From the NCBI RefSeq assembly GCF_023612255.1, contig NZ_CP063231.1, positions 478,001-542,000 on the forward strand: a DNA stretch of 64,000 bases. Reading direction: 5' to 3'. Source of the DNA: Luteibacter flocculans (lineage in GTDB: Bacteria > Pseudomonadota > Gammaproteobacteria > Xanthomonadales > Rhodanobacteraceae). Under the pieces are notes generated by a model. That model did no database searches. It saw only the letters and a list, made by a program, of their open reading frames with translations, and was not told the DNA's origin. Position numbers and translations under genes: made by a program. Position 1 is the stretch's first letter, and every line of letters begins with the position of its first letter. Shown here piece after piece: positions 3,259 through 12,341 of the stretch.

Positions 3259-3603
3259 TTATTGCGGCGGTTGTGACAGTTCCCTGGCATCCAGCACGCC
3301 GTCATGGTTGCGGTCCAGCTTGTGGAACTGGTGGATGAGGTTCCGCTGGAATTCGTCGAGGTGGATGGGCCGCGCGCCGGGGCGCATCGGGCCGTCGTTG
3401 GCGTCCAGCACGCCGTCGCCGTTGACGTCCATGCGCAGGAAGCCCTGGCTCATGTAGCGCACGTATTCCGCTTCGTCGATGCGGCCATCGCCGTTCTCGT
3501 CCATTCGGCGGAGGTACTCGGCCGGGGTGCGCGGCACATCCTGCGCAAATGAGGAGCCGGCAAGGGCGAAAGCGGCAAGGAGGGCGTAGGCAGGTCGGCT
3601 CAT
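3259..3603 (-). CDS. Secreted EF-hand calcium-binding protein
   Basis: A 114-residue protein with an N-terminal signal peptide (MSRPAYALLAAFALAGSSFA, cleavage probably after SFA), so periplasmic or secreted. The mature part has three canonical EF-hand loops: DENGDGRIDEAE (about residues 35-46), DVNGDGVLDAND (about 58-69) and DRNHDGVLDARE (about 97-108), each with Asp/Asn/Gly at calcium-ligand positions. It therefore most likely binds Ca2+, perhaps as a small buffer or sensor; no enzymatic domain is present. It is divergent from cysM. The role is unknown; proteins like this are common in Xanthomonadales. Confidence 0.85.
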   Translation of the reverse strand: MSRPAYALLAAFALAGSSFAQDVPRTPAEYLRRMDENGDGRIDEAEYVRYMSQGFLRMDVNGDGVLDANDGPMRPGARPIHLDEFQRNLIHQFHKLDRNHDGVLDARELSQPPQ

Positions 3604-3697
3604 GGGCGGGCAGTCTGGGCGATCGGAAGGCGTTTGTCGCGCCGCACCGCGTCGGAGTACCTTTGGTCACTGGCAGGCCCGCTCAGGAACCCTCTCA

Positions 3698-4654
3698 ATG
3701 ATCTACGACAGCATCCTCGACACCATTGGCCGCACGCCCATCGTTCGTCTGCACCGCGTGGCGCCGGCACACGTCACGCTTTATGCCAAGGTGGAATCGT
3801 TCAATCCCGGCGGATCGGTCAAGGACCGCCTCGCCATCGCCGTCATTCTCGATGCCGAGCAGAAAGGCTTGCTGAAGCCGGGTGACACGGTGGTCGAAGC
3901 GACCTCCGGCAATACGGGCGTCGCGCTCGCGATGGTCTGCGCGGCGAAGGGTTACAAGTTTGTGGCGACGATGGCTGACAGCTTCTCCGTGGAGCGCCGC
4001 AAGCTGATGCGCGCCTACGGTGCCAAGGTCATCCTCACGCCCGCCGCCGAACGTGGCAGTGGCATGGTGCGCCGTGCGGAGGAACTGGCCGCCAAGCACG
4101 GCTGGTTCCTGCCGCGGCAGTTCCAGAACCCGGCCAATCCCGGCTATCACCGCAGCACCACGGCGTCTGAAATCCTTCAGGACTTTGCCGGCCGTCGGCT
4201 CGATGCCTTCGTGACCGGCTGGGGTACGGGCGGCACGCTGACCGGCGTCGGCGAGATGCTCAAGCTGGCGCGACCCGAGGTGAAGATCGTGGTCTCGGAG
4301 CCGGCGCAGGCGCCCTTGCTGCAGGACAAGCCGTGGTCGCCGCACAAGATCCAGGGCTGGACGCCTGATTTCGTACCGGATGTCCTGAACCGCAAGGTCT
4401 TCGACGTGAACGTGCCCGTGGACGAAGTGGTCGCACGCGACACGGCACGCCGCCTCGCTGCCGAGGAAGGCCTGTTCGTGGGTGTCTCCGCGGGCGCCAC
4501 CGCGGCCGCAGCGCTGCAATACGCAGAAAGTGCCGAGAAGGGCAGCGTCATCCTGGCGATGCTGCCCGATACCGGCGAGCGCTACCTCTCCACCTTCCTT
4601 TTCGAAGGCGTGGAAGAAGGCACCGACGAGGCCTGGCTGAACAGCCTGGGCTGA
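3698..4654 (+). CDS. cysM: Cysteine synthase B (O-acetylserine sulfhydrylase B)
   Basis: A 318-residue PLP enzyme that makes cysteine from O-acetylserine and sulfide or thiosulfate. The PLP lysine sits in FNPGGSVKDR (Lys42), the phosphate-binding loop is TSGNTG (about residues 67-72) and the glycine loop is GWGTGGTLTG. The QFQNPANPGYHR stretch and the length fit CysM better than CysK. I start it at ATG 3698 rather than an upstream in-frame ATG at 3602, because family homology begins at IYDSILDTIGRTPIVRL. Upstream AGGAA is a modest ribosome site. It stands alone, divergent from the EF-hand gene. The imperfect hairpin at 4665-4705 may end its transcript. Confidence 0.95.
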   Translation: MIYDSILDTIGRTPIVRLHRVAPAHVTLYAKVESFNPGGSVKDRLAIAVILDAEQKGLLKPGDTVVEATSGNTGVALAMVCAAKGYKFVATMADSFSVERRKLMRAYGAKVILTPAAERGSGMVRRAEELAAKHGWFLPRQFQNPANPGYHRSTTASEILQDFAGRRLDAFVTGWGTGGTLTGVGEMLKLARPEVKIVVSEPAQAPLLQDKPWSPHKIQGWTPDFVPDVLNRKVFDVNVPVDEVVARDTARRLAAEEGLFVGVSAGATAAAALQYAESAEKGSVILAMLPDTGERYLSTFLFEGVEEGTDEAWLNSLG

Positions 4655-4664
4655 GCTTCGCGCG

Positions 4665-4705
4665 CTTCGCAATGACGCAGGGCTCGCCCCCTCGTCATCG
4701 CGAAG
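4665..4705 (+). terminator. Imperfect hairpin after cysM
   Basis: The arms CTTCGCAATGACG (4665-4677) and CGTCATCGCGAAG (4693-4705) pair at 12 of 13 positions around a 15-base loop, 10 bp after the cysM stop. No U-run follows, so it could be a weak terminator, an mRNA-stabilising hairpin or a repeat remnant. Confidence 0.35.
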
Positions 4706-4778
4706 CAACGTCGGCACTGCGTTCCCATCACGCGTCGACCGTCACGGTAGGGGCCTCGAACGTCAGGAGGTCAACGTC

Positions 4779-5162
4779 ATGGCATGGTTTCGCAGCAAGA
4801 GCATGGGTGAGGAGTGGCTGGGCCGCGCGCAGCGCCTCGCGGGCGCGACGGTGGGTAACCATCCGCGTGAAGCCTTCGGTGCCGCGCGCGAGTACGCCGG
4901 GCGTGCCGGATCGCTGGCGAGCCAGGCGTTCGACGGCGCAAGTCGCGGCGTCCGCCGTCACCCTGGCATGACCCTCGCTATCGGCGCGGGCATCGGCGCT
5001 GTTATCGCGGCGTGCCTGCTGGCCAATCGTTACGCGCGTCTGCAGGAAGACGAGTACGACGCGCACGATCCGACCCGGCAGCGCCCAACCGACAGCAGCG
5101 GCGATGCCCTGGACGGTTCGGGTGAGGACAATCCCGTGCCGGGAGAAACCGGGCTTTACTGA
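4779..5162 (+). CDS. Small single-pass membrane protein, DUF883/ElaB-like
   Basis: A 127-residue protein with a helical, Ala/Arg/Gly-rich N-terminal half, one hydrophobic segment (about residues 66-85, MTLAIGAGIGAVIAACLLA) and an acidic, Asp-rich C-terminal tail. The RRHPGMTLAIGAGIGAVIA pattern resembles the C-terminal anchor of the DUF883/ElaB/YqjD family, whose E. coli members bind ribosomes at the inner membrane. Here the tail after the anchor is unusually long (about 40 residues). A strong ribosome site AGGAGGT lies seven bases before the ATG. The family assignment is tentative. Confidence 0.6.
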   Translation: MAWFRSKSMGEEWLGRAQRLAGATVGNHPREAFGAAREYAGRAGSLASQAFDGASRGVRRHPGMTLAIGAGIGAVIAACLLANRYARLQEDEYDAHDPTRQRPTDSSGDALDGSGEDNPVPGETGLY

Positions 5163-5169
5163 GTCCTAG

Positions 5170-5200
5170 GTCACAGGGGCGTTGACCGCGCCCCTGTGAC
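5170..5200. terminator. Perfect 12-bp hairpin between convergent genes
   Basis: GTCACAGGGGCG (5170-5181) and its exact complement CGCCCCTGTGAC (5189-5200) flank a 7-base loop. It lies 8 bp past one stop and 8 bp before the stop of the convergent mksB, a position expected of a bidirectional terminator. It lacks a long T-run. Confidence 0.65.
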
Positions 5201-5208
5201 GCGTGCGA

Positions 5209-8001
5209 TCACGCGGCGTTGGACCGCCGCCGCAACACCGCCAGCGGTTGCGCCCAGGTCGCACCCGGTCGCCGCTTGCTCGTGACGAGCGTGAGTTCGG
5301 ATGGCTGGAACACATTGATGTTGTGCGTGGCTGGCGTCGTCAGGATGTACTGCGCGCGCGTGCTCTTCAGGAACGCGCCGACCTTGTCGATGTTGAAGAT
5401 GTCCAGGTGCGCGAACGGTTCGTCGATGAAGACGAAGCCGCCCGGCCGGTCCTCGTCGCGCATGAGCGCCACGAGCAGCAACAGCGATTTCATCACCTGC
5501 TGGCCGCCCGATGCCTCGCCGTCGTCCATGCCGATCCAACCCTTCTTGTCGAACTCGAAGCGCACATGCAACGCGGCGGACGACAACGCGAGGTCGTCGT
5601 TGCTGAGTTCGGGAAGATCGACCTCCACGCCGATGCCCGCCAGCTCCGCGAGCACCTTGAGGTTCTTGGCATAACGACGAACGGTGTTGCGCAGCACCTG
5701 GATATAGGCACCGCGCGCCTCGTGGGTGATACGCGACGCGCGCTCGAGATGGATGCGGCGCTTTTCCAGATCGAGTTTCAGTCCATCGTGGTCGGATAGC
5801 AGCTTTTCGCGGAGCGCGAGCACGCTGGGATCCTGTTCCCAGTGGCCTTCTTCTAAGCGGCGTTCCACGCGATCGATCTCGCGGCGTACCGCTGCGGGCG
5901 ACTCGAAGCGTTCCCGCAGCGCGGCCATGGCGGTGCGTCCACGCAACGCCAGGGGCACGTGGCGCCGCTTGGCGCGGAATGCCTTGAGGCGGTCGACCTG
6001 CTCACCACGCAACTGATGATGCTGGCGCACGGCATCCGCCAACTGGCGCTGCACGTCGCGCTGTTCGCGCGCGCCGTTATCGCGGGCATTGGAGGTCTTG
6101 AGGCGCTTCTCGCGGACAGCCTCGTAATGTTGTTCGGCGGCCGCATGACTGTCGGCGGTGCGCTGCACGTCCTCGCGCAGGCGGGCCTGCTGCTCGTGTG
6201 CTTCTGCGAATTCATCGGCGCGGTCAGCGAGCTGGCTGCTGGCGCTGGCGCCGCGCAGTACGGCTTCGGCGTCGCTGGCACGTGCCAGGGCGTCCTTGCG
6301 TTCGCTCGCGATCTCGCGGAGACGTGCCTCGATGCCGCGCAACGCGGCTTCGCCGTCGCGCAATTGGCGTTCGCGAGCCCCGGAACCGAAGTACATGTCG
6401 TCGACGCCGAGATGGCGTCCGCCGCGTCGCTCCTTGAAATAGCCCTGCGGGGTGATCCAGTCCTGATCGCGGCTGCAGGCTGCGCCTTCGGTCACGTTCT
6501 CCACGCGGCGGATGCGATCGAGATTGCGCAGCAACCATTCGGGCGCCGCAGCGGAGAACGATACGACCTCAAGCAGCGAGCCGCGCGTCGCCGATTCGGC
6601 GGGCGCGCGGTCTGCGACCACGAAATGCTTGTAGCGATGCTGCTCGCCGAGCTTCCACGCCGCCTCGCGATCGCGTGGATCGTCCAGCAGCACGACGTGG
6701 CGATAACCGGCGAGTACCGCTTCGACCGCCGGCTGCCAGCGGGGCTCGGCGATCTCCACGATTTCGCTGAGCATGCTGTGGCGGATGCCCGCTTCGTCGA
6801 GCGCACGACGGAACGAGGCTTCGAAGTCGGGTGTGTAGCGACGTCCGCTGCGCCAGGCCGAAAGCTGGCTGGTGACGGTGGTCAGTTCCTGGCGCAGCCG
6901 GGTTTCCTCGGCTTGCAGATGATTTGCCAGGGCGCGCGCATCGCGCGCCACGTTGGCGAGACGTTCGTGATCCGCGCCGCCCTGCGCCGCCACCATCTCG
7001 CGCAGCCTCGCCTCCTGCTTGATCAGCAGGTCGTTCTGCGCGAGCTCGGCGCGTGCGGCGTCGAGGCTCTTCTGGGTCTGCTGGCGTGCGAGGTCCGCCT
7101 CGTGCTGTTCCGCACGAAGCGTTTCGCCCTGGGCGTCCAGTTCGCCGAGTTGTCGGGCGAGTTCCACATCGCGGCGTTCCAGTTCCGTCACGCGGCGCTT
7201 GATGCCGGTGAGCTGAGGACGCGCGCCGCGGATGCCGGCGAGCAGTTCGGCGAGTTCGGTGCGCGGGAGAATCTCGGAGACGAGATCCACACGCTCGGTC
7301 TTCAGCGCATTCCATTCCTGGAAGGAGCGCGCACGCGCTTCGGCTTCCTGCAGGCTCACGCCAATGAGCGACAACTGGTGTTCGAGGCCGTGCTGCTCGC
7401 GATCGGCTTCACCCTGTTCGTTGCGTGCGCGCTGGTAGTCGTCGAGCACGGCCTTGTCGCCGAAGACGTCGAAGACGAGATCGAGCAGGGCCTTGGGCGG
7501 AAGCTGGCATAGCTTGTCCGTCGCACCTTGTTCGAGCGTGAGCACGCGGCGGATCGCCTGCGACAGGCCGGCACCTTCCAGGCGCACGCGGTATTCGCGC
7601 AGGCCGAGAAACTCGCCGCGCGCCTCGATCTCCTCAACGCTGACATCGCCGCCCAGCACGGCGTATTGCCGGGTCCACTCGCCGCCCTTCTTCTGGATGC
7701 GGCAGGCGAGCGTTACTTCGCGGTCCATCAAGGGGAAGAACGGACGCTCGCCGCTCGGCCCCGGCGTGTTGCCAACGCGGGCGCGCAACCAGGCGAACGG
7801 TTTGCCGTTGTGGCGCAGGTAGCTCTTGTAGTCGCGGTTGCCCGCGCAGTCGATGGTGAGCAGCGTGCGCAATGCATCGAGCAGCGTGGTCTTGCCTGAG
7901 CCGTTCGGGCCCACGACGGTGACGATGTTGGTATCCAGCGGCAGGCTGAAACGCTGCCAGTAATCCCAATGCACCACTTCGAGGCTGCGGAAATCAAACA
8001 T
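5209..8001 (-). CDS. mksB: SMC-type condensin ATPase, MksB/JetC-like
   Basis: A 930-residue SMC protein, the DNA-loading ATPase of a bacterial condensin. Walker A is GPNGSGKTT (residues 31-39). Long charged coiled coils span about 190-390 and 540-760, separated by a hinge-like globular region (about 400-540, containing WQPAVEAVLAGYRHVVLLDD). The C-terminal head has the signature ASGGQQ (830-835), Walker B FVFIDEP (856-862) and the D-loop AHLD. At 930 residues it is far shorter than MukB (about 1480) and close to MksB. Family homology starts at MFDFRSLEVVHWDYW, so I use ATG 8001 and not an upstream ATG at 8148. The start overlaps the mksE stop by eight bases. It is the last gene of folE-mksF-mksE-mksB. 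No MksG/JetD gene is adjacent. Confidence 0.8.
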   Translation of the reverse strand: MFDFRSLEVVHWDYWQRFSLPLDTNIVTVVGPNGSGKTTLLDALRTLLTIDCAGNRDYKSYLRHNGKPFAWLRARVGNTPGPSGERPFFPLMDREVTLACRIQKKGGEWTRQYAVLGGDVSVEEIEARGEFLGLREYRVRLEGAGLSQAIRRVLTLEQGATDKLCQLPPKALLDLVFDVFGDKAVLDDYQRARNEQGEADREQHGLEHQLSLIGVSLQEAEARARSFQEWNALKTERVDLVSEILPRTELAELLAGIRGARPQLTGIKRRVTELERRDVELARQLGELDAQGETLRAEQHEADLARQQTQKSLDAARAELAQNDLLIKQEARLREMVAAQGGADHERLANVARDARALANHLQAEETRLRQELTTVTSQLSAWRSGRRYTPDFEASFRRALDEAGIRHSMLSEIVEIAEPRWQPAVEAVLAGYRHVVLLDDPRDREAAWKLGEQHRYKHFVVADRAPAESATRGSLLEVVSFSAAAPEWLLRNLDRIRRVENVTEGAACSRDQDWITPQGYFKERRGGRHLGVDDMYFGSGARERQLRDGEAALRGIEARLREIASERKDALARASDAEAVLRGASASSQLADRADEFAEAHEQQARLREDVQRTADSHAAAEQHYEAVREKRLKTSNARDNGAREQRDVQRQLADAVRQHHQLRGEQVDRLKAFRAKRRHVPLALRGRTAMAALRERFESPAAVRREIDRVERRLEEGHWEQDPSVLALREKLLSDHDGLKLDLEKRRIHLERASRITHEARGAYIQVLRNTVRRYAKNLKVLAELAGIGVEVDLPELSNDDLALSSAALHVRFEFDKKGWIGMDDGEASGGQQVMKSLLLLVALMRDEDRPGGFVFIDEPFAHLDIFNIDKVGAFLKSTRAQYILTTPATHNINVFQPSELTLVTSKRRPGATWAQPLAVLRRRSNAA

Positions 8002-8704
8002 CGGCAGGCTCCTCGCCAGCATCGAGGGAGAGGTCGTCGTCTTCGGCGTCGTCCACGACAGGCGCAGGCCGCGCCGCCGCTTCCGCGAGCAGGTCGCCCA
8101 GCGCGCCATCGAGGATGCGTCGTGCCGTGCGTTCGTAATCGAATGCAAGATCGAGCAGCGGCCCCTCGGCGACTTCGCCCTTGCGTCGGATGATGAAACC
8201 CAGGCGGTTCAACGTGCCGAGATTGAAGCCGACGCGCGTCTTGCCGCCGAGCTTGTCGCCGAAATCGGCGAGCAGGGTGCGCTCCGCAATCACGGGCGAG
8301 ATCGTGGGATCGCGCGGTATGGGTTTTTCTTCCGCAAACATCTGGCCTTGTGACGCGGCGGCTTCGGCGCTCTGGCGTTCAACTTGGCGTTGTCGCTTGG
8401 GTAGCACGATGAGCGCCCAGATCACCACCAGCAACGCGACGCCGTCGCGGTCGAGTTGCAAGGTGTTGGAGATCCAGCTGTCGCTGCCGCCGAATACGGC
8501 GCGCTCGCTCTTGCGGGCAACGGCGAGGCCAATGTATGCCGCGTAGGGGTGTTCGCGCAGTTCCAGGCCGACCGCTTCGAGGCGGCGGTCCAGTTCCTCG
8601 CGGAAGCCTTCGTCGAGCAGCGCCTTGCGTGCCTGCGCGTCGTCGCGCGGCAACCAGCGTTGCGCAAGCAGGCGGGTGACCAGGCTGGCGGTATCGTCAT
8701 GCAT
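7994..8704 (-). CDS. mksE: Condensin accessory subunit, MksE/JetB-like (KITE protein)
   Basis: A 236-residue protein placed between a kleisin-like and an SMC gene. Its first half contains ELREHPYAAYIGLAVARKSE and a hydrophobic helix GVALLVVIWALIVLP (residues 88-102). The second half (about 135-195) looks like a winged helix with a basic wing (FIIRRKGEVAEGPLLDL). It ends in an acidic tail (about 218-234). This matches the tandem winged-helix KITE subunits MukE/MksE, which dimerise on the kleisin and modulate the SMC ATPase. It overlaps the neighbours on both sides by eight bases, so the three subunits are translationally coupled. The assignment rests on gene order, size and fold-like pattern, since this family diverges quickly. 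Confidence 0.7.
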   Translation of the reverse strand: MHDDTASLVTRLLAQRWLPRDDAQARKALLDEGFREELDRRLEAVGLELREHPYAAYIGLAVARKSERAVFGGSDSWISNTLQLDRDGVALLVVIWALIVLPKRQRQVERQSAEAAASQGQMFAEEKPIPRDPTISPVIAERTLLADFGDKLGGKTRVGFNLGTLNRLGFIIRRKGEVAEGPLLDLAFDYERTARRILDGALGDLLAEAAARPAPVVDDAEDDDLSLDAGEEPADV

Positions 8705-10010
8705 CGGTGGCGGTGTCCTTCGTGGTGGTGCGCGGACGCAGGCGTCCGGCGCTCACCAGGGCGATCTGGGGCAGGTCGATGTCGATCAGGCGCGGCTCGA
8801 TGTCCAGCGCGAGGGGCAGGCGCGCGAGGTCGGCGGTGCCGCCTTCCAGCGCGGCGGATTCCGGGTCGCCGAGGAGGCCGAGCAGGGAAAGCCGGTACGC
8901 TGAAAGCGCATAGTCGTCGCCCACCAGCGTATCCGCGAGTTCGCGTGGTGCATCGATGGCGGCGAGTTCGGCATGCCAGGCTTCGAGGAAGCGCAGGTCT
9001 TCCTCGTCGATCGGCAGGTCGGCCGTATCCGGTGGTTGCTCAGCGCCGGGCAATGCCGTGCTTTCTGCCGCCAGACGCTCGCGTTCGAGCAGTTCGAATT
9101 CGGCGACGTCCAGCGCGATCTGATCGTGGATGAATGGTGCGGGCAGCGGCAGCAGCAGTTGCCCGTCTTCGAAGGCGGCCAGCGTGTCGATGTCCTGTGC
9201 GCGCAGCCAGCCGACGAGGTCGGACGAGGAGAGTCCCGTGCGTCCGAGATGCACGCGATGCTGGTCGATCTTGTTGAGTTCGCGCTGGAAGGTGCCGGCC
9301 TGACGCAGCAGCGCGCTCTGTGCGCGACCGACGGCCTGGGCAAGGCGGTGCGCGGCCGGTTCGAGCTCGTCCTTCTCCGTGATGGCGGCGACCACCTCGG
9401 TGCCTTTCTCCACCCAGGTCCACACCGCGTCGAGCCGCTCCGCTGCGCGACGGATGCGATGCTCCGAACCGGAGAGCACGGCGCGGTCGAAGTCTTCCTT
9501 CAATTCGCTGAGGCGGGAGAGCAGGTGGCCGAGTTCGTCCACGGAAACGCGACCGACCGCGTGCCCCGCGGCCAACTGCGCGGTGAGGTAGCCGAGACCG
9601 TCGTCGTCGTGGTCCTCGAATTCGAGCATGGCGGCGAGTGCCGCGAGCGCCTTGCGCCCTAACGGACCCACACGGTAGCGCAGCGTTTCGCCGTCATAGA
9701 CGAGCAGGTCGTGGTCCTTGAGGCGCTGGACCACCGTTTCCAGCTTCACCGGATCGACGAAGGCCAGATGATCGCGGATCTCCTGCGGCGTCCACTCCGT
9801 GGCGTGCGCGCGGCCGCCGAGCGTGCGCAGCACGAGCAGGCGCAGCAGCACCTGCGCCTCGCTGCCGTGGAACAGCGCGGAGAACGCGCGCAACAGACTG
9901 CGTCCGCGCAGCAGCGGAAACAGGGACGGGATGTCCTCGGCGACGACGCCGTCGCGGAAGAGATCCTGCAGGCGTTCGTCGTGGACGGTGGTGTCGGTCG
10001 GGCCGCTCAA
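8697..10010 (-). CDS. mksF: Kleisin-like condensin subunit, MksF/JetA-like
   Basis: A 437-residue soluble protein, first subunit gene of the condensin. Residues about 50-125 look like an N-terminal winged helix (EAQVLLRLLVLRTLGG, then WTPQEIRDHLAFVDPVKLETVVQRLKDHDLL). Residues about 155-250 are long amphipathic helices, as in MukF/MksF, which use the N-terminal part to dimerise and bind the SMC neck. The C-terminal part is acidic and ends in a probable SMC-head-binding domain. It begins seven bases after the folE stop and overlaps mksE by eight bases. In a kleisin role it would bridge the two MksB heads and recruit MksE. JetA of Wadjet has the same position in its operon. Confidence 0.7.
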   Translation of the reverse strand: MSGPTDTTVHDERLQDLFRDGVVAEDIPSLFPLLRGRSLLRAFSALFHGSEAQVLLRLLVLRTLGGRAHATEWTPQEIRDHLAFVDPVKLETVVQRLKDHDLLVYDGETLRYRVGPLGRKALAALAAMLEFEDHDDDGLGYLTAQLAAGHAVGRVSVDELGHLLSRLSELKEDFDRAVLSGSEHRIRRAAERLDAVWTWVEKGTEVVAAITEKDELEPAAHRLAQAVGRAQSALLRQAGTFQRELNKIDQHRVHLGRTGLSSSDLVGWLRAQDIDTLAAFEDGQLLLPLPAPFIHDQIALDVAEFELLERERLAAESTALPGAEQPPDTADLPIDEEDLRFLEAWHAELAAIDAPRELADTLVGDDYALSAYRLSLLGLLGDPESAALEGGTADLARLPLALDIEPRLIDIDLPQIALVSAGRLRPRTTTKDTATDA

Positions 10011-10017
10011 GATGACG

Positions 10018-10614
10018 TCAGCGGCGATCGACGCCCACGAAGCGAAGGAACTCGCTGCGCGTGCGTGGATCTTCGCGGAAGCTGCCGAGCATCTGGCTGG
10101 TGACCATGGACACGCCGCGCTTGTGCACGCCGCGGGTGGTCATGCACTCATGGCTGGCATCGATTACCACGCCCACGCCGCGCGGACGCAACGTGTCTTC
10201 GATGCAGTGAGCGATCTGCGCGGTGAGTTTTTCCTGCACCTGGAAACGCCGGGCGAAACCATCCACCACGCGGGCGAGCTTGCTGATGCCAACGACGCGG
10301 TCGGTGGGGACGTAGCCTACGTGCGCGCGGCCGATGATCGGTGCCATGTGATGTTCGCAATGGCTCTCGAACTCGATGTCGCGCAGCACGATCATCTCGT
10401 CGTAGCCGGCCACTTCTTCGAAGGTGCGGCGGAGGTATTCGGCGGGGTCCTGGTCGTAGCCGCTGAACCAGTCGGCGTATGCCTTGACCACGCGCTTGGG
10501 CGTATCGAGGAGACCCTCGCGCGTCGGGTCTTCGCCCGCCCACAGCAGCAGCGTGCGTACGGCCTCCTCGGCCTGTTCGCGGCTGACCGGACGGGACTTG
10601 GCGTCGTCGCTCAT
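10018..10614 (-). CDS. folE: GTP cyclohydrolase I
   Basis: A 198-residue enzyme converting GTP to 7,8-dihydroneopterin triphosphate, the first step of tetrahydrofolate synthesis. Zinc ligands are visible: Cys86 and His89 in SHCEHHM, and Cys157 in [10 protein letters not shown]. The GxxHVGYVP and [12 protein letters not shown] segments are typical of the type I enzyme. Length fits the family. It is the promoter-proximal gene of a minus-strand operon, with the condensin gene mksF starting seven bases after its stop, an unexpected partnership. A TACAAT -10-like box lies 33 bp upstream, and AGGTGATT-type purines form a weak ribosome site. Confidence 0.97.
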
Positions 10615-10646
10615 CGAGGTGATTCCTTGGACGGTGGCAAACGCGC

Positions 10647-10652
10647 ATTGTA
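10647..10652 (-). promoter_or_regulatory. Candidate -10 element of the folE-mksFEB operon
   Basis: The minus strand reads TACAAT, a good -10 match, 33 bp before the folE ATG. No convincing -35 is seen at 16-18 bp. REP elements begin about 30 bp further upstream, limiting the promoter to a short stretch. Confidence 0.35.
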
Positions 10653-10680
10653 CCGTTGTTGGCGCCCGCGAGCCCCTGGC

Positions 10681-10840
10681 TGTGGGAGCCGCTATAGCGG
10701 CGAGCGAAAGCTTGCGGTGGGAGCCATCCTGATGGCGATTGCAACCTGCCTCGCCGCTACACCGCTCCGTCGGCTTTTCGCCAGCAGGCTGGCTCCCACC
10801 TTTGCTCCGTTTGGCTTCTCGCCGCCATGGCGGCTCCCAC
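10681..10840. repeat. Cluster of four REP-like palindromes between rmuC and folE
   Basis: Four copies: 10681-10704 (plus, TATA core), 10717-10738 (plus, variant core GCCATCCTGATGGC), 10778-10800 (minus, CAGCAGGCTG core) and 10817-10840 (minus, CATG core). All share GTGGGAGCC at one end and GGCGA at the other, around a short palindrome. The 10741-10777 stretch between them holds the AGCGG-type tail of the third copy. The remaining non-coding bases 10615-10680 hold the folE promoter region. Confidence 0.85.
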
Positions 10841-10847
10841 AGAGTGG

Positions 10848-12296
10848 TCAGTCGCCGGATGGCTCCGTCTCATCCCCATCGTCCAGGCCCGGGACGATGT
10901 CGAGCAGGGCCTGGGATTCGTCGGACCCCAGGGATTCGACCCCGCGCAGCTTGCGCTCGATGGCGCGGGTGCGCACACCGGCCGTATCGATGCTGTTGCG
11001 CACGGTGTCCAGTTGCTTGCGGGTCTTTTCCAGCACGGTGGCGAACTTGCCGAACTCGTTCTTGACTGCCGCCAGCACGTGCCAGACCTCGGACGAGCGC
11101 TTTTCAATGGCCAGCGTGCGGAAGCCCATCTGCAGGCTGTTGAGCAGGGCCGTGAGCGTCGTGGGGCCCGCGACCGTCACCCGCCACTCGCGCTGCAACT
11201 GGTCGGACAGCCCCGGGCGGCGGATCACCTCCGCGTAGAGGCCTTCCGTCGGCAGGAACAGGATCGCGAAGTCGGTGGTGTGCGGCGGGGCAACGTACTT
11301 GGCGCGGATGCGCTTGGCTTCCTCGCGTACGCGGAGCTCCAGGGCCTTGCCGGCCGCCTGTGCGCCTTCGACGTCTGCAGCGTCCTGCGCGTCCAGCAGA
11401 CGCTGGTAATCCTCGACCGGATACTTGGCGTCGATGGGAAGCCAGACCGGGGCGCCCTCGTCGGCACCGGGAAGGCGGATGGCGTACTCCACGCGCTCGC
11501 TGGAACCGGGCACGGTAGCGACGTTGGCCGCGTACTGCTCGGCAATGAGTATCTGTTCCAGCAGGGCACCCAACTGCACTTCACCGAAGGTGCCGCGGGT
11601 CTTTACGTTGGTCAGCACGCGCTTGAGATCGCCCACGCCTGCCGCCAGCGCCTGCATCTCGCCCAGGCCGCGCTGCACGGCTTCCAGACGTTCGGACACG
11701 AGCTGGAACGACTGGCCGAGCCGGGTTTCCAGCGTGGCCTGGAGTTTCTCGTCCACCGTCGCCCGCATCTGTTCCAGCTTCGCCGCGTTGTCCTGCTGGA
11801 TCGCGCCGAGGCGCGTTTCCAGCGTGGTCCGGACCTCCGCAAGCCGCTTTTCGTTGTCGGCGGTGAGGGCGGTGAAGCGCTGGTCGAGCAGTTCGCCGAA
11901 GTGCTTCAAGGTCAGTGCCGATTCCTCGCGGGTCTTGCGCGAGTCGTCGGCGAGGCCCTGGCGCAGCGATTGCAGGCCGGTGTCGGTGCGCTCGGTGAGC
12001 TGATCGAGACGGCGTCCGAAGCCTTCGATGCGCTCGTGCTGGCGGTCCGCCGCGAGCTGCAGTTGCTCCTGCACGTGCCCGCGGAACTGGCCCAGACTGT
12101 CGCCCAGCTCGCTGCGGCCAGCGCGTTGTTCGTCGCGGATCAGTGCTTCGAGGCGTCGGCTGTCCTCACGGAGGGCATCGAGGCGCGCGGCCTGGCCGTC
12201 GTCCTGGCGGCCCCTGCCGAGCAGGGCGAACAGCAGACCGAGGCAGGCGAGGGCCACCACCAGAAGAACAAGGATGAGGATGGTTTCAAGCGTCAT
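10848..12296 (-). CDS. rmuC: DNA recombination protein RmuC
   Basis: A 482-residue protein of the RmuC family, linked in E. coli to limiting inversions at short inverted repeats. It has an N-terminal membrane anchor (about residues 4-24, [20 protein letters not shown]), a long coiled coil (about 30-190, many Leu/Arg/Glu heptads) and the RmuC nuclease-like domain (about 210-440) with [29 protein letters not shown] and [11 protein letters not shown]. The start is ATG 12296. An upstream in-frame ATG at 12371 would only add residues translated from a REP element. The acidic C-terminus ([13 protein letters not shown]) is ordinary for the family. It is flanked on both sides by REP clusters. Confidence 0.93.
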
Positions 12297-12341
12297 GAAG
12301 ATCGAGGATATCCATTCGTCAGAGAGCGAAGCGCGTCGCCC

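Follow-up and report, generated by a model that had tools for sequence, protein, structure and literature searches.

In Wadjet systems JetABC has been described as a DNA-sensing motor and JetD as the cutter (PMC10586767, PMC10123090, PMC10512200), and the MksBEF complex of Pseudomonas aeruginosa offers a precedent for a role on the chromosome (PMC7485682, PMC10586767). Several Wadjet-group members lack MksG/JetD, and a genome-wide operon list has been described (PMC7617805). Here we analyse a related operon in Luteibacter flocculans, located in a 64,000-nucleotide stretch (assembly GCF_023612255.1, contig NZ_CP063231.1, positions 478,001 to 542,000 of the forward strand) that we call the window and number from its first letter. 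The operon encodes a probable kleisin, a KITE subunit and an SMC ATPase directly downstream of folE, and it has no nuclease gene. Nuclease-free members of the Wadjet group are already known; what is new is a divergent family in which JetD has been switched repeatedly. The near-universal retention of the other genes in two genera, despite the missing nuclease, suggests plasmid defence turned into a machine for handling the chromosome.

The four genes form a single tight run on the minus strand, with 7 bases between folE and the kleisin gene and overlaps of 8 bases each at the kleisin/KITE and KITE/SMC junctions; the coordinates, gap and overlaps in the initial annotation, which had been made from the sequence alone, were exact on re-reading of the window. 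The features are as follows, with lengths in amino acids (aa).

10018-10614, minus strand: folE, GTP cyclohydrolase I, 198 aa (PF01227, 249 bits)
8697-10010, minus strand: probable kleisin (JetA/MksF/MukF-like), 437 aa, TTG start (predicted fold)
7994-8704, minus strand: KITE subunit (JetB/MksE-like), 236 aa (predicted fold)
5209-8001, minus strand: SMC ATPase (JetC/MksB-like), 930 aa, ATG start (SMC_N, 56.7 bits)
7885-7911, minus strand: SMC Walker A, GPNGSGKTT, residues 31-39 (eight of nine positions invariant in the window and 22 relatives)
6541-6777, minus strand: SMC hinge region, residues 409-487 (SMC_hinge PF06470, E=0.011, below cut-off)
5497-5511, minus strand: SMC ABC signature, SGGQQ, residues 831-835 (invariant in the same set)
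5419-5436, minus strand: SMC Walker B, FVFIDE, residues 856-861 (invariant in the same set)

The Walker A, signature and Walker B motifs had been called intact at the outset, and the alignment with 22 relatives confirmed both their integrity and their conservation, the Walker A proline being the sole position that is nearly rather than fully invariant.

For the nuclease, no JetD was found in the window, and none in the single-contig 4.3 Mb genome either by Pfam JetD_C or by a profile of the family's own JetD. The initial annotation had reported no adjacent MksG/JetD and had named a JetD elsewhere in the genome as evidence against its reading; the first observation was borne out and the second search was negative, which supports its description of a nuclease-free MksBEF-like complex distinct from a canonical four-gene Wadjet operon. 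A DUF4194-type system was likewise absent from this genome, compared with its presence in 42 of 274 genomes of the class. Across 37 genome rows searched, some of them the same genome, 30 including the window's own had no JetD-family gene, and the seven rows with JetD represent five distinct genomes in which it adjoins the SMC gene in each. The window's genome also encodes a canonical SMC (1031 bits).

Relatives were drawn from one scan of 84,980 species genomes, in which the best 80 of 100 confirmed stretches gave 78 distinct loci from Luteibacter, Dyella, Aquimonas, Lysobacter and others plus betaproteobacterial bins, a sample rich in Luteibacter and Dyella. The kleisin-KITE-SMC order is kept in 73 of these loci, the other five lying close to the end of a contig and missing one or two of the genes, and the SMC is at least 920 aa long in 74 of the 78, the exceptions being L014 (internal stop), L074 (898 aa), and L082 and L083 (both cut). 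The 8-base KITE/SMC overlap recurs in all 26 folE-linked relatives and in 9 of 14 further loci inspected. In many relatives a gene of about 400 aa directly follows the SMC gene, with a 4-base overlap in six loci. PADLOC JetD1 models matched all eight of the fourth-gene proteins tested (best E 1.5e-10 to 1.1e-16), and five tested with Pfam had no match at cut-off. All 16 aligned JetDs share an invariant Glu, all six residues of DPDPAG and all five of KGEQE, motifs that we take to be the Toprim metal site. That close relatives, including Luteibacter strains at the same site, carry this nuclease as a fourth gene had been missed by the initial annotation; it places the operon with the Wadjet group and makes the nuclease-free state at least partly derived.

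Among scored rows JetD is present in 28 and absent in 43 including the window, and five (L023, L049, L066, L074, L077) were left unscored as their contigs end early. Grouped by record titles, 20 of 22 scored betaproteobacterial rows carry JetD versus 8 of 49 Xanthomonadales rows including the window. The SMC tree, built without the frame-broken L014, the cut L082 and L083 and the duplicates L103 and L106, requires nine changes of JetD state, eight of them forced by starred branches; it comes from a quick method with a simple model and carries a warning that long branches meet. The JetD tree, from which the duplicate L103 and the cut L062 were left out, again pairs L020 with L036 and again groups L040, L042, L044 and L085, just as the SMC tree does, so exchange of JetD seems confined to these groups, and the family has probably had JetD for a long time. 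The joint Xanthomonadales group has support of 92/93 and is unstarred, and the median ratio of JetD to SMC distance is 1.96 within Xanthomonadales and 1.07 within betaproteobacteria.

Focusing on the nearest genera, an SMC match was found in all 23 Luteibacter genomes, one of them a contig-cut fragment, and a full-length SMC in 19 of 20 Dyella-group genomes, the twentieth (86% complete) having a weak partial match only. JetD follows the SMC gene in four of the 23 Luteibacter genomes (L146, L159, L160, L163) and stands beside it in none of the 19 Dyella-group genomes. A tree of 22 Luteibacter members and four outgroup rows, without the fragment L164, implies four JetD changes, three of them forced. 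Comparison of L020 (Luteibacter jiangsuensis) with L010 (Luteibacter) in 300-base steps gave 89-99% identity from rmuC through folE, 66-88% inside the operon and 79-95% beyond it, with JetD in L020 only; the high identity of the flank against the low identity of the operon indicates exchange of the cassette. In Lysobacter changpingensis L044, JetD occupies the place where L045, L049, L050 and L051 have a fructosamine kinase gene, and at 10500-12300 of that locus the last 300 bases of the SMC gene plus JetD have 54-60% guanine-plus-cytosine content versus 64-72% around them. The simplest reading of this low-GC SMC tail and JetD in place of fructosamine kinase is recent acquisition, and L044 seems to have gained JetD recently.

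What follows the SMC gene in JetD-minus relatives varies: an EF-hand gene, fructosamine kinase, redoxin, DUF885 on the opposite strand, or a gene with no Pfam match. A Pfam scan for a replacement nuclease returned none among ten proteins, five of them without any match, so that an effector of a new kind may still be among them; the set comprised eight genes lying past the SMC gene in relatives that lack JetD (in either orientation, some of them mechanically called open reading frames), the window's 127-aa gene and one EF-hand gene. Five of those SMC neighbours had no PADLOC match either, in a run in which three JetDs did match.

A class-wide survey with the SMC profile matched 5 of 369 genomes, two at full length, although it scored two candidates per genome and relatives may therefore be missed, and in an order-level sample 15 of 200 had a match, the one in G184 covering just 127 residues at 28 percent. 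Two large Variovorax plasmids (H1, H2) carry a distant SMC relative, about 40 percent over half the length. The bins L057 and L071, labelled Bordetella parapertussis, fall among other betaproteobacterial bins on the SMC tree, and that label looks doubtful.

Of the three subunit labels, that of the SMC held on its motifs and SMC_N match, and those of the kleisin and KITE, which have no family match above cut-off in Pfam or PADLOC and no PADLOC JetA or JetB match, rest on predicted folds. The SMC also matches PADLOC JetC1 at 72.5 bits over part of the protein only, and a profile of its relatives matches the Smc structure 4rsj over positions 342-592 (E=4.4e-5), further evidence for the hinge region. 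Its match to the MukB N-terminal family (15.9 bits, cut-off 23, E=0.011) is below cut-off, as is that to SbcC_Walker_B (16.9 bits, cut-off 27); the latter, with the presence of a KITE partner, speaks against a RecF/SbcC/Rad50-type protein, the unrelated family that the initial annotation had named as telling against it. For the other two subunits, AlphaFold models of moderate confidence were built from 31-row alignments. The KITE model has a predicted local distance difference test score (pLDDT) of 72, and its best Foldseek matches are JetB of two Wadjet complexes (8.6e-6 for the JetABC chain 8as8_C and 2.2e-5), ahead of Nse1/Nse3, ScpB and MukE entries; by VIA, one JetB gave Z 13.2 (8dk1_E, root-mean-square deviation (rmsd) 2.9 over 164 residues) and the other Z 12.5 (rmsd 4.0, 176 residues). 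The predicted fold thus resembles JetB/MukE at a pLDDT of only 72. The kleisin model (pLDDT 75) has a single Foldseek match below 0.001, the MukBEF chain 9gm7_C (E=2.5e-4), and 13 of its 14 best rows are chains of MukF, MukEF or MukBEF entries, with low template modelling (TM) scores. Since winged-helix regulators and a designed repeat protein, which are unrelated, score equally well by VIA (Z about 11), the 437-aa protein is a probable rather than a proved kleisin. Against DUF4194, KITE reached E=0.014, below cut-off, and the kleisin and KITE profiles showed no similarity to 17 DUF4194-type JetA/JetB pairs (hhalign probability below 1 percent, several JetA rows being cut at the locus end), so it is the fold, the SMC and JetD that connect the family to known Wadjet. 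Six Lysobacter loci (L039, L043, L046, L047, L048, L081) have a predicted kleisin of 482-544 aa and a predicted KITE of 318-339 aa, with starts chosen by script, which exceed the lengths in most other loci.

Selection on the core was assessed from ratios of nonsynonymous to synonymous substitution (dN/dS) in 30 pairs. For the SMC these were 0.026-0.224 (median about 0.06) in 18 JetD-minus pairs and 0.059-0.122 in five JetD-plus betaproteobacterial pairs; seven mixed JetD-plus/JetD-minus pairs (0.070-0.164) were kept out of both groups. The groups differ in taxonomy, so the values speak for constraint and not for or against a contrast between JetD states. One Lysobacter pair had a KITE dN/dS as high as 0.42. 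Alignment columns were compared as well: the 24 JetD-plus rows have 279 invariant columns, 57 of which vary in at least one of the 43 JetD-minus rows, and the JetD-minus rows have 304, of which 82 vary in at least one JetD-plus row, so this comparison gave no sign of relaxed constraint without JetD. It additionally leaves out L021, L058, L059, L061 and L075; L049, with fructosamine kinase after SMC, was taken as JetD-minus here and in the dN/dS pairs. Three further ideas were discarded. A decayed JetD interface showed no clear patch, the most variable column, kleisin residue 219, differing in 16 of 43 JetD-minus rows. The KITE N-terminus, for which an IFDR motif has been considered in relation to JetD (PMC10586767), gave no signal of co-variation, R11, L12, R16 and R20 being invariant in both states. 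Faster SMC evolution with JetD held in some sister pairs and was reversed in others.

The initial annotation had thought a role tied to folate/GTP supply through folE possible and had proposed a survey of folE neighbours, which led elsewhere. Upstream folE occurs in 26 of the 78 loci, and these come solely from Luteibacter, Dyella and strain ZG21-1; a few loci are not long enough to reveal it. In the loci from Lysobacter, Aquimonas and the betaproteobacteria the examined stretch holds the operon and no folE. In 18 folE loci with no operon there (L087-L102, L104, L105), an EF-hand match lies within 100 bases of folE in 13, so that folE stands directly before the EF-hand gene; it is 1.3-1.4 kb away in two, and none was found in the stretch for three. 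Eight of these 18 genomes were checked genome-wide: seven had no SMC match, and G012 has the operon on another contig. Where the operon is present, an EF-hand match falls inside the 1.5 kb SMC flank in all 19 Dyella-group loci, and the EF-hand gene directly follows SMC in Luteibacter L038, L054, L161 and L162. Because folE precedes EF-hand in operon-less relatives and EF-hand flanks SMC elsewhere, the operon was inserted between the two; on this synteny the functional folE link is rejected, and we read folE as a chromosomal neighbour and insertion point outside the complex. Read-through expression from folE is a guess. Two features lie beyond the SMC stop codon in the window.

5170-5200, no strand: perfect 12-bp inverted repeat with a 7-nt loop, just past the SMC stop, between the convergent SMC and 127-aa genes
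3259-3603, minus strand: EF-hand gene (EF-hand_5, E=4.3e-15), two genes past the operon

The window's EF-hand gene is separated from the operon (3602-5162) by the 127-aa gene, which has no Pfam match, and a PALP enzyme gene, both in the same position in other Luteibacter loci looked at; they are a later insertion or rearrangement. The inverted repeat is a possible transcript end; it has no T-run and is absent from the terminator-scan output. Between 4700 and 10900 no sigma-70-type promoter was found, and the three terminator-like sites, fewer than in shuffles, include none at the operon end.

The kleisin-KITE-SMC core would form an ATP-driven complex of the MukBEF-like (Mks)/Wadjet group. By analogy with the described systems, JetABC-type proteins in four-gene relatives would extrude DNA loops and the Toprim nuclease JetD would cut small circles; with the nuclease gene absent in the window lineage, the complex would be expected to load onto DNA and carry out loop extrusion with no cleavage, acting as an accessory condensin alongside the cell's ordinary SMC. 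We consider it reasonably probable that this Wadjet-group complex works as such a nuclease-free condensin, a reading favoured because JetABC alone remains without JetD and because P. aeruginosa MksBEF provides a precedent. It draws on what the sequences show: an operon with intact ATPase motifs, no JetD found genome-wide, JetD at the same position in relatives, repeated switching, a near-universal core in two genera and purifying selection. More tentatively, the core may be a resident machine and JetD a plug-in cartridge, strains switching at one site between condensin and plasmid-cutting Wadjet, with both states in use and the core staying JetD-competent; the routes would be loss, whole-cassette exchange (L. 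jiangsuensis L020) and acquisition of an SMC tail plus JetD (Lysobacter changpingensis L044). Several points weigh against the condensin reading. Defence loci, too, typically undergo cassette exchange of the kind seen at the operon site; JetD-minus rows show no distinct cluster of decayed positions, so adaptation to nuclease-free life is not visible; the changes on the tree may be losses or gains, with the direction on each branch not settled; the kleisin fold match is weak, and by hhalign the kleisin and KITE profiles look dissimilar to DUF4194-type JetA/JetB. Loop extrusion, action on the chromosome and absence of plasmid restriction are all steps that we infer.

The cassette swap in Luteibacter, the lack of clear decay in residues shared with JetD-plus relatives and the silencing of some viral genomes by Smc5/6 (PMC7617805) would also fit a complex that is still defensive, one that without JetD would keep incoming DNA silent, compacted or shut out, or would call on a host nuclease encoded elsewhere. 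We regard this as unlikely, though the strongest competitor: defence genes are expected to be patchy, whereas 42 of the 43 genomes in the two genera have the SMC gene, no JetD-family protein lies elsewhere in tested genomes, and the genes after SMC differ among JetD-minus relatives. That the operon is a decaying remnant, its nuclease lost and the other genes merely persisting, recalls the frequent Stenotrophomonas JetABC without jetD judged probably inactive (PMC11680222), and one Luteibacter metagenome bin (L014/L152) has a stop codon within its SMC gene, either real or an assembly error; yet with long open SMC frames in nearly all loci and the low dN/dS of JetD-minus pairs, such decay is very improbable. 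Least credible is a folate/GTP-linked condensin operon in which folE couples nucleotide supply to chromosome organisation, for which the close folE-kleisin spacing (the 7 bases of the window, and -4 to 17 with script-chosen starts in 26 relatives) would speak, against the restriction of upstream folE to a third of the loci and its usual place by the EF-hand gene in operon-less relatives.

The kleisin and KITE drew no Pfam or PADLOC call in three species tested, so defence annotation likely misses this Wadjet-like family. Its JetD alternates between presence and absence at one locus among close relatives, including named cultured strains, making the two states directly comparable, and the family bears on the idea, called a tempting speculation in a review (PMC10586767, section 7), that Wadjet is the origin of the condensins MukBEF and likely MksBEF. 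A literature search, with subscription papers and supplements outside it, found no paper on Luteibacter and Wadjet, on folE and MksB or, among the matches listed and judged by title or abstract start, on JetD switching within one locus. Compared with Wadjet JetABCD/MksBEFG of types I-III, the operon shares the kleisin-KITE-SMC order, a KITE model closest to JetB and, in many relatives, a JetD-type Toprim fourth gene; it differs in that the window has no JetD, its kleisin and KITE are unrelated by profile to the DUF4194-type proteins and its SMC has 930 aa versus 1096 and 1119 aa in the full-length JetC chains compared. Lacking JetD and any JetA or JetB profile match, it does not qualify as Wadjet proper. 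With MukBEF it shares a kleisin model whose weak fold match is nearest MukF and, on the reading proposed here, the nuclease-free condensin form, but the MukB N-terminal match is below cut-off, and MukBEF replaced SMC-ScpAB in its hosts (PMC10586767), unlike the window's genome, which keeps SMC. The Wadjet I system of Stenotrophomonas maltophilia without jetD (PMC11680222) belongs to the same bacterial order and has a conserved JetABC without JetD, although it is typed as Wadjet I and judged probably inactive there. P. aeruginosa MksBEF, likened, as is the S. maltophilia system, by description only, is a three-subunit complex with no nuclease whose host cell has SMC as well, and it is thought to derive from JetABCD through loss of JetD (PMC10586767).

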